DNA of 20,329 nucleotides from a virus, in IMG/VR virus record IMGVR_UViG_3300032083_000283, positions 1 to 20,329 of that record; one strand, given 5' to 3'. How positions within the stretch are numbered: the first letter of the stretch is position 1; each line of letters opens with the position of its first letter. Both the position numbers and the translations under genes were made by a program. Below the pieces are notes generated by a model. That model did no database searches. It had not been told where the DNA came from and saw only the letters and a list, made by a program, of their open reading frames with translations. Below are positions 3,888 through 17,409 of this stretch, piece by piece.

Positions 3888-3942
3888 TGTTCAGATATTT
3901 TTTTTTGCGTTAATACCTTTATTAGCTTTATTAGGAATACAT
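3887..3942 (+). other. Possible frameshifted signal-anchor leader of the endolysin (T9 slippery tract)
   Basis: An ATG at 3887 overlaps the stop of the giant gene (TAATG) and has AAGG nine bases upstream. As written it encodes only eight residues (MFRYFFFL-like) before TAA at 3911-3913. A run of nine T (3898-3906) contains the canonical -1 slippery heptamer T TTT TTG. One -1 slip, or one extra T, joins this start in frame to the M15 peptidase at 3943 and gives the leader MFRYFFFALIPLLALLGIH, which has the form of a signal-anchor or signal peptide. A homopolymer sequencing error is the main alternative. Confidence 0.5.
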
Positions 3943-4311
3943 ATGTACAAATATTTTACAGACAAAGAACTAGAATGCAAGCACTGTGAGGCAGAAGGTA
4001 TCGACCCTACATTTATGCAAAAGGTTGATAAACTAAGAGGTGAGCTAGGTTTTGCTTTTCCTATTACTTCTGCCTATCGTTGTCCTGACCATCCCATAGA
4101 AGCTCGTAAAAACGCTCCTGGCGCGCATGCATCAGGAAGGGCTGTAGATATAGCGGTAAGAGGAGAACAAGCTTACAAGCTCTTACAGGCAGCTTTAAAC
4201 GCAGGTTTCACAGGAATAGGTGTAAGCCAAAAAGGTGGAGTACGTTTTATACATCTAGATGATTTACCAGATTCTAAAGAACGTCCTAGACCACACGTAT
4301 GGAGTTACTAA
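3943..4311 (+). CDS. M15 family peptidase, probable endolysin
   Basis: This 122-residue protein matches the peptidase M15A fold (Peptidase_M15_3 type), whose members cut the peptide side chains of peptidoglycan. The zinc-binding pattern is clear: H62 and D69 lie in GAHASGRAVDI, and a third histidine is H104 in FIHLD or H118 in RPHVWSY. Length and motif order are normal for single-domain phage endolysins. The ATG has AGGA seven bases upstream. The gene sits between a virion gene and a holin, the usual lysis cassette position. The protein as started here has no export signal and would need the holin to reach the wall, but an in-frame hydrophobic leader lies just upstream across a T9 tract. The enzyme class is secure; whether it cuts as an endopeptidase or a carboxypeptidase cannot be told. 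Confidence 0.9.
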   Translation: MYKYFTDKELECKHCEAEGIDPTFMQKVDKLRGELGFAFPITSAYRCPDHPIEARKNAPGAHASGRAVDIAVRGEQAYKLLQAALNAGFTGIGVSQKGGVRFIHLDDLPDSKERPRPHVWSY

Positions 4312-15663: not shown

Positions 15664-17340
15664 TTAAAAAGGTATGTCATCTATAAGGGTATTTGTAAAC
15701 TCAGTCTCTACTAATCTTCCTGATATAGAATCATACAAAAGATTACCTGCTAAACCAACTTCACCTGTATGCCTAGACTTTAAGATTCTAATCCTGGTTG
15801 TATTAGCCTCAGTTTTATCTTCAGCTTGTTGGTTTCTTTCTAAAGCTATCACACAATCTGACAGTTGTGCAATGGCTCCACTACCACGTAGATGGCTGAT
15901 GTTTACTTCTGCACCATTCTCATGTCCTGCATTACCTTCTATCTTACGCAAGTGAGACACAAGTATAAGCCCTGCACCTGTTTCTTCTACAAGACTACGA
16001 AGCTGTGTCATTATATTATCTATCAGCCTTCTTTCATCACCACCTTCTAAGGCTGATACAAGCATGTGTAAGTGATCAAGAACTATCCATTTACATTCGC
16101 AACCTACAATTAAGTAACGTATCTTTGCAAAGATTTCTTCTACAGTATTGATCCCAAAATGTGAGTGAATAAAAAGTTTGTCATTAGACAATACTCTTTG
16201 ATAAAGATTATCTAGTTCTTCTTCTGTGTACTTAGCTCTGACTTCTTCTAAGTGAATCTTTTCATTACAATCAATTGCAAGGATACCGTCTACTGTACGC
16301 CTCCAATCTTCCTCTAATGCAATGATGCCTATATTGTCTTCACTGTTGTTAAGAATCCAATGCTCTAACTCTCTTGTCACACTAGTCTTACCAAGACCTG
16401 TACCACCACATACAGTTACTAGCTCACCTTTACGGATACCATGTAGCTTTTCATTAAGCACTCCCCAAGGATATGGAATACTTTCTTTTTCTGTACGATC
16501 TTTCCAAGCACTAAATTTTTCTGATACTCTGATAATACCCGCAGGTGTAATAGTCTTTGCTTGCCAAAAGCAATCAACAAACTTTTTATGTTGTGCTTTT
16601 CTAAGCATATCATTAGCATCTTTATACTCTGCTGGCAGTGTCATTATCTTTGCTTTGTTAGGTGGGAATAACCCTGCAACTGTTTTTGCTGCATCTCTCC
16701 CTGCTTTATCTGAATCAAAACAAATAATTACATTTTCAAACGAACTAAGAAACTCAAGATTCTTTTTAACATCTGCTGCTGCTGACTGTGCACCATTCTT
16801 AATAGAAACAACAGGCCATCTACTACCTGTAAGCTCATAAGCTGCCATAGCATCACACTCGCCTTCTGTAATCGTAATGTACTTAGCACCAGGATTACAA
16901 AGAGTCTGTCCAAATAACTCAGCTTCTTGAATCTTGCCTTGACTAGTAAAACCTTTTGTCTTTACTTTACGAATCTTGTGAGCAACTAATTCATTATTAG
17001 CGTAATAAGGATAATAATGTTTATCTATTTCTCCCTCAGAATTATATGTAACTCTAACGTTATAATGTCTTGCTGTATCCTCAGAGATACACCTATCTCT
17101 TAGATCTCCAAAGACACCTGTGTAAGAATCTTGTGATATAACGGGACTCGACATAGTTATATTCTCTCTACTGTATACTTCATTTAGATGTACAGGTTTC
17201 TGTACAACATTATCAGGTTCTTCATAGTTTGGAAAGAATGTTCCACAACTAAAACATTTTGCTGATCCATTATCATTTATGCTCACAGCATCACTACTGC
17301 CACATGCAGTACATGCAACATGAAACTTAACAAAAGCCAT
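15664..17340 (-). CDS. Bifunctional primase-helicase, T7 gp4-like
   Basis: This 558-residue replisome protein unwinds DNA and makes RNA primers. N-terminal four-cysteine zinc finger: C10, C13, C29, C32. TOPRIM primase centre: E159 in ITEGECD and D209/D211 in CFDSDKAGRD. DnaB/RecA-type helicase: Walker A GGTGLGKTS (K318), Walker B D422 in WIVLDHLHM, H463 in VSHLR and the RGSGAIAQLSD motif. The length is close to T7 gp4 (566). The last residues are LIDDIPF: the C-terminal Phe after acidic residues is functionally like T7 gp4, whose acidic tail contacts the polymerase, and the last five match the tip of E. coli SSB. ATG 17340 has GGAG seven bases upstream. A strong hairpin lies 30 bases before the start. 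Confidence 0.95.
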   Translation of the reverse strand: MAFVKFHVACTACGSSDAVSINDNGSAKCFSCGTFFPNYEEPDNVVQKPVHLNEVYSRENITMSSPVISQDSYTGVFGDLRDRCISEDTARHYNVRVTYNSEGEIDKHYYPYYANNELVAHKIRKVKTKGFTSQGKIQEAELFGQTLCNPGAKYITITEGECDAMAAYELTGSRWPVVSIKNGAQSAAADVKKNLEFLSSFENVIICFDSDKAGRDAAKTVAGLFPPNKAKIMTLPAEYKDANDMLRKAQHKKFVDCFWQAKTITPAGIIRVSEKFSAWKDRTEKESIPYPWGVLNEKLHGIRKGELVTVCGGTGLGKTSVTRELEHWILNNSEDNIGIIALEEDWRRTVDGILAIDCNEKIHLEEVRAKYTEEELDNLYQRVLSNDKLFIHSHFGINTVEEIFAKIRYLIVGCECKWIVLDHLHMLVSALEGGDERRLIDNIMTQLRSLVEETGAGLILVSHLRKIEGNAGHENGAEVNISHLRGSGAIAQLSDCVIALERNQQAEDKTEANTTRIRILKSRHTGEVGLAGNLLYDSISGRLVETEFTNTLIDDIPF

Positions 17341-17370
17341 TGCTTTCTCCGAATTATATTAAAGAAGTGA

Positions 17371-17399
17371 GGGACACCCCCCGCAGTGGAGGGTGACCC
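17371..17399. other. GC-rich hairpin ahead of primase-helicase
   Basis: In the - strand transcript an 8-base stem (17388-17395 with 17375-17382, one G-U pair) closes a five-base loop (17383-17387). Across one U-U mismatch it extends with three more G-C pairs (17397-17399 with 17371-17373). It lies in the 69-base gap between the small 17410 gene and primase-helicase. No T-run follows, so an ordinary intrinsic terminator is unlikely. RNase III processing or a control of helicase translation is possible. Confidence 0.7.
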
Positions 17400-17409
17400 G
17401 AATGGAAGG

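Follow-up and report, generated by a model that had tools for sequence, protein, structure and literature searches.

Leaky intrinsic terminators within operons combine a GC-rich stem with a small loop and directly follow a stop codon, with genes of the same direction on either side, and the RNase III sites of phage T7 are stable hairpins between the genes of a replication operon. Efficient RNase III sites span about two helical turns. In E. coli, shortening the distance between a translated stop codon and a terminator from 28 to 5 bp reduces termination efficiency from ~90% to under 10%, an effect exerted by ribosomes (PMC4824070). In phage T4, genes 32 and 43 are under translational regulation: a structured leader lies directly upstream of the replication gene, and an AU-rich stretch for ribosome binding comes next (PMC3014915, PMC535899). 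Both gp32 and gp43 act as translational repressors via a leader pseudoknot and a hairpin, and a 2010 review regarded T4-type gene 32 as perhaps the sole viral example of translational control through a leader pseudoknot (PMC3014915).

The hairpin described here, located upstream of the primase-helicase gene of a marine phage, resembles each of these systems in part. It shares with leaky intra-operon terminators the GC-rich stem, the small loop and the location just past a stop codon with genes of the same direction on both sides, and U-tailed forms occupy the same spot in relatives; however, in the clade of the phage under study the U tail is interrupted and starts with UCAC, and no A-tract lies upstream. 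As with the T7 sites, a stable hairpin separates genes within the replication operon of a phage, but its stem is much shorter, many of its homologues are U-tailed, and in a near relative (G001) no T7-type RNA polymerase was detected. The structured leader and the ensuing AU-rich ribosome-binding region recall the T4 operators, whereas no pseudoknot was found in the sequence analyzed, the loop is not conserved, and a pseudoknot-like layout is confined to a sister clade, where the pairing involves the Shine-Dalgarno sequence itself. Our literature searches found nothing on this ssb/primase-helicase gap.

Gene context and structure of the hairpin

We analyzed a 20,329-nt stretch of viral DNA (IMG/VR record IMGVR_UViG_3300032083_000283), hereafter the window, in which the minus-strand transcript runs from ssb through an 88-aa ORF and a 69-nt gap into the primase-helicase gene (Table 1). 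The original prediction placed the hairpin in a gap between ssb and primase-helicase; it does lie upstream of primase-helicase, but the 88-aa ORF intervenes after ssb. ORFs of similar size are found at this position in the relatives examined, and the relatives read generally share the gene order of ssb, small ORF and primase-helicase. The small ORFs of these relatives are partly alike in sequence (YDV..L, and an acidic ..AL(V/I).. end).

Table 1. Positions of the hairpin, the surrounding features and related elements in other loci
Feature	Position	Strand	Remarks
ssb	18112-17678	minus	PHROG 112 (gp2.5-like), E = 1.4e-12
88-aa ORF between ssb and hairpin	17676-17410	minus	no PHROG match
69-nt gap, 88-aa ORF to primase-helicase	17409-17341	minus	
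5' flank CCUUCCAUUC, ORF stop codon to hairpin	17400..17409	minus	conserved in clade B
Hairpin	17399-17371	minus	loop ACUGC closed by 8 pairs (one U-G), then U-U mismatch and 3 G-C pairs
3' flank UCACUUCUUUAAUAU	17356..17370	minus	degenerate U-rich tail (6 U in first 10)
TATAAT in AT-rich spacer	17353..17358	minus	also in most clade A/B relatives
Shine-Dalgarno GGAG of primase-helicase	17347..17350	minus	read from the sequence; kept in all clade A/B alignment rows
Primase-helicase gene, 3' of hairpin	15664..17340, ATG at 17340	minus	PHROG 239, E = 3.9e-181
Long gap hairpin of sister clade, loop CCUCCUUG	L028:2122-2212, L045:3199-3286, L199:614-703, L202:617-703		
Long gap hairpin of sister clade, loop CCUCCUUG	L203:614-703, L206:162-252, L212:576-703		
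Long gap hairpin of sister clade, loop CCUCCUUG	L368 near 3923-3998	reverse complement	
GC-rich hairpin in a different gap of G001	L110:7023-7078	minus	followed by CUUUUUAU

The gap RNA has the order CCUUCCAUUC-GGGUCACCCUCC-ACUGC-GGGGGGUGUCCC-UCACUUCUUUAAUAUAAUUCGGAGAAAGCA-AUG, and the hairpin within it reads GGG-U-CACCCUCC-ACUGC-GGGGGGUG-U-CCC. Both sequence and folding bear out the predicted architecture, namely, an 8-pair stem with a five-base loop, extended by three G-C pairs across a U-U mismatch. The hairpin starts 10 nt past the stop codon of the 88-aa ORF, outside the coding sequence, and its 3' end lies exactly 30 bases ahead of the primase-helicase ATG, as had been claimed. A folding calculation, which had been proposed as a check, yielded -22.2 kcal/mol for the 33-nt element (z = -3.9; 0/200 shuffles as good), and the 69-nt gap as a whole is also more stable than its shuffles (z = -2.8; 1/200). 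The description of the hairpin as very stable holds as well: among hairpins of up to 36 nt on both strands of the window it ranks first, at -20.8 to -22.2 kcal/mol versus -15.9 kcal/mol for the next. Stability alone is modest evidence, because an equally strong hairpin occurs somewhere in 2 of 100 dinucleotide-shuffled windows; conservation is the stronger argument. The plus strand folds worse (-16.9 vs -22.2), because the U-G wobble becomes an A-C mismatch there. A DNA-level hairpin or origin was rejected, considering the wobble on the mRNA strand, the poorer folding of the other strand and the lack of a turn in the cumulative skew. At the gathering score, Rfam gave no match in the window, and no tRNA was found there.

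Regarding the sequence that follows the stem, the original prediction that no T-run is present stands insofar as a continuous run is lacking, but U makes up six of the ten bases past the stem (UCACUUCUUU; four U in eight), and a terminator scan of the window lists a shorter version of the hairpin site. The 5' flank of the window is pyrimidine-rich rather than A-rich.

Conservation in two clades of close relatives

The same hairpin as in the window is present throughout clade A (L001-L009), and in two of its members (L006 and L009) an extra A turns the U-U mismatch into an A-U pair and leaves one U bulged. In clade B (L010-L018 and L099), with primase-helicase DNA ~72% identical to that of the window's clade, the stem arms are GGGACUUC..GAAGUCCC. 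The mismatch position is an A-U pair in this clade, and two inner pairs are altered on both sides compared to clade A (A-U to U-A and C-G to U-A), which are the compensatory changes that the original prediction had proposed to look for. Loss of pairing in relatives, which would have spoken against that prediction, was not observed in these two clades: 91.5% of the cells in the clade A/B alignment are paired, compared to 84.3% in shuffles (0/500). These comparisons suggest that the hairpin has been kept with compensatory changes, although the covarying pairs number only two and the statistical case amounts to few events. The loop sequence differs between relatives.

The two flanks, CUUCC.UUC and UCACUUCYUUAA, differ less between clades A and B than do the hairpin (62-72%) and the coding DNA. 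In four of the five clade B representatives, identity to the window is 13-14/15 in the 3' flank, with 10/15 in L014, and four of the five share 8-9/10 positions of the 5' flank. The TATAAT between the hairpin and the Shine-Dalgarno sequence recurs in most clade A/B relatives despite differing spacer lengths. A promoter at this site was considered and rejected, given that no -35 element was seen, that the transcription start would fall at the ribosome-binding site and that the site did not appear promoter-like in a scan; the motif probably reflects spacer composition.

Probable termination and alternative roles of the hairpin

Primase-helicase queries, run in four scans against viral contigs, yielded 304 usable loci from related marine phages, which fall into 91 clusters that are not independent lineages. 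In 37 of the 91 clusters, the gap is 20 nt or shorter and has no room for a hairpin. We defined a terminator-like hairpin by a score above zero and at least 5 U in the 8-nt tail (U8), the score serving for ranking only. Where the stretch ahead of primase-helicase measures 30 nt or more (53 clusters), 25 clusters hold such a hairpin, and several of these are of textbook form; examples from relatives include GGGGC-UUCG-GCCCC-UUCUUUU, GAGGUAG..AUACCUC-UUUUUUUU and UGGGGUAGG..CCUGCCCCA-UUUUU. Hairpins at the same spot are often short (down to 5 pairs) and followed by U-runs, and the terminator-like hairpins of distant relatives have U8 values of 5-8. Pelagibacter phage HTVC103P carries a hairpin ending in CAGUCC-UUUUUU between ssb and primase, and HTVC115P has a 21-nt gap without a hairpin. 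In 36 clusters, the median distance from the preceding stop codon to the hairpin is 10 nt, with 25 of them at 12 nt or below, and the hairpin ends ~20 nt ahead of the start codon. In a different gap of G001, a GC-rich hairpin followed by CUUUUUAU (Table 1) comes closer to a canonical terminator than does the hairpin separating ssb from primase.

On balance, we lean towards reading the hairpin as an intrinsic (Rho-independent) terminator, weak and leaky, that divides the ssb-ORF pair from the genes for primase-helicase and polymerase. On the transcribed strand, it has the stable GC-rich stem-loop of such terminators, with stem pairs that covary between the two clades, and it lies downstream of an ORF stop codon. 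The site scores slightly positive (2.0), and within clade B the L014 cluster reaches 7.2 (U8 = 5). Under this scenario, host RNA polymerase would proceed through ssb and the 88-aa ORF, and part of the polymerases would halt at the hairpin, such that ssb mRNA would exceed primase-helicase mRNA; the stem would also shield the 3' end of the shorter mRNA. Because the hairpin begins so close to the ORF stop codon, a ribosome completing the 88-aa ORF could block its folding and favor read-through. A terminator that is possibly gated by ribosomes in this manner is attractive by analogy, given that the hairpins of the family sit ~10 nt past a stop codon and that stop distance has such an effect in E. 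coli. The host polymerase is the likely reader of the region, because a search for T7-type RNA polymerase (PF00940) detected the control phage HTVC200P but not G001, a 48-kb relative; nor was this polymerase found in G002-G007, and all seven records may be incomplete.

Several observations count against termination. The tail has no unbroken U-run in the window's clade, the 5' flank is rich in pyrimidines instead of A, and the conservation of the two flanks from clade A to clade B is not required of a plain terminator. Furthermore, L010, L011, L012 and L018 score between -10 and -16, and a shuffle of the window's own gap outscored the real site (4.4 vs 2.0).

The interrupted tail, together with a very stable GC stem that is kept with compensation and a sister-clade gap hairpin without any U tail, would fit a different fate of the RNA, in which transcription runs to completion and the hairpin becomes a target of an RNase III-like enzyme or blocks 3' exonucleases, prolonging the life of the ssb-ORF mRNA. 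This is close to the original prediction, which regarded the hairpin as a processing site or stabilizer separating ssb from helicase. The separating role is in line with the gene-group boundary that the hairpin marks in many relatives, but the RNase III part is poorly supported, because the stem of ~11 pairs with one mismatch is short of two helical turns and because many homologous hairpins, indeed most of them, bear terminator-like U tails. We consider it unlikely overall that processing or stabilization in place of termination accounts for the hairpin. It may nonetheless act as a general 3'-end stabilizer, because terminator hairpins stabilize 3' ends too.

The conservation of the flanks over and above that of the hairpin points in another direction, namely, to an operator or to hiding of the primase-helicase Shine-Dalgarno sequence, as in T4 genes 32 and 43, where the gene products repress translation through leader structures (PMC3014915). 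Pairing between CUUC and GGAG appears in the consensus fold, and the loop of the sister-clade hairpin is complementary to the primase Shine-Dalgarno sequence. However, the probability that the Shine-Dalgarno sequence of the window is unpaired is 0.10 versus 0.15 in shuffled leaders, with 41% of the shuffles as low, its longest perfect complement in the window is 4 bases (p = 0.94), and the loop varies among relatives. Sequestration of the Shine-Dalgarno sequence is accordingly not apparent in the window, strong complementarity being restricted to the sister clade. Two specific arrangements were rejected: hiding by nested folds, which did not exceed shuffles, except for a low value in L021, and a loop-to-Shine-Dalgarno pseudoknot in the window, which was not above chance. 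Thus, we doubt that translational control explains the window's hairpin.

The sister-clade element itself has a different appearance. The gap hairpin is long and lacks a U tail. All 12 pairs of its stem form in each of seven distinct sequences, and nine of the pairs show both-side changes; these counts come from hand-cut segments in a chosen register, and slides of 1-3 bases lose the signal. The loop retains CCUCCUUG, which can pair with the primase Shine-Dalgarno sequence over 7-10 bases. This anti-Shine-Dalgarno pairing hardly varies, so that it is supported by complementarity rather than by covariation. A pattern search for the combination of hairpin and anti-Shine-Dalgarno sequence returned well-formed cases only upstream of primase-helicase. 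Rfam searches of ten relatives, including the sister clade, gave only two matches, both at chance level and located elsewhere. We propose the sister-clade element, which is absent from Rfam, as a candidate ribosome-site-hiding pseudoknot.

Finally, a functionless chance or relic structure is very improbable: although shuffled windows occasionally match the hairpin in strength (see above), it lies in the right gap, is kept with compensatory pairs across clades with coding DNA ~72% identical, and has counterparts at the same spot in many lineages.

The junction as a possible control point

We tentatively suggest that, in this phage group, the junction between the ssb-ORF pair and primase-helicase might be a general control point filled with different RNA devices, which would include translation-gated terminators ~10 nt past the stop codon, the conserved-flank hairpin of the window, or the Shine-Dalgarno-hiding pseudoknot, all setting the output of primase-helicase relative to that of SSB. 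The sister-clade pseudoknot, if real, would be an added phage case of translational control by a leader pseudoknot. If the terminator reading is correct, phages that apparently lack their own RNA polymerase would use a leaky terminator in a fixed position to tune SSB levels against those of the replisome enzymes, and the junction would offer a simple test case for ribosome-gated termination in marine phages.
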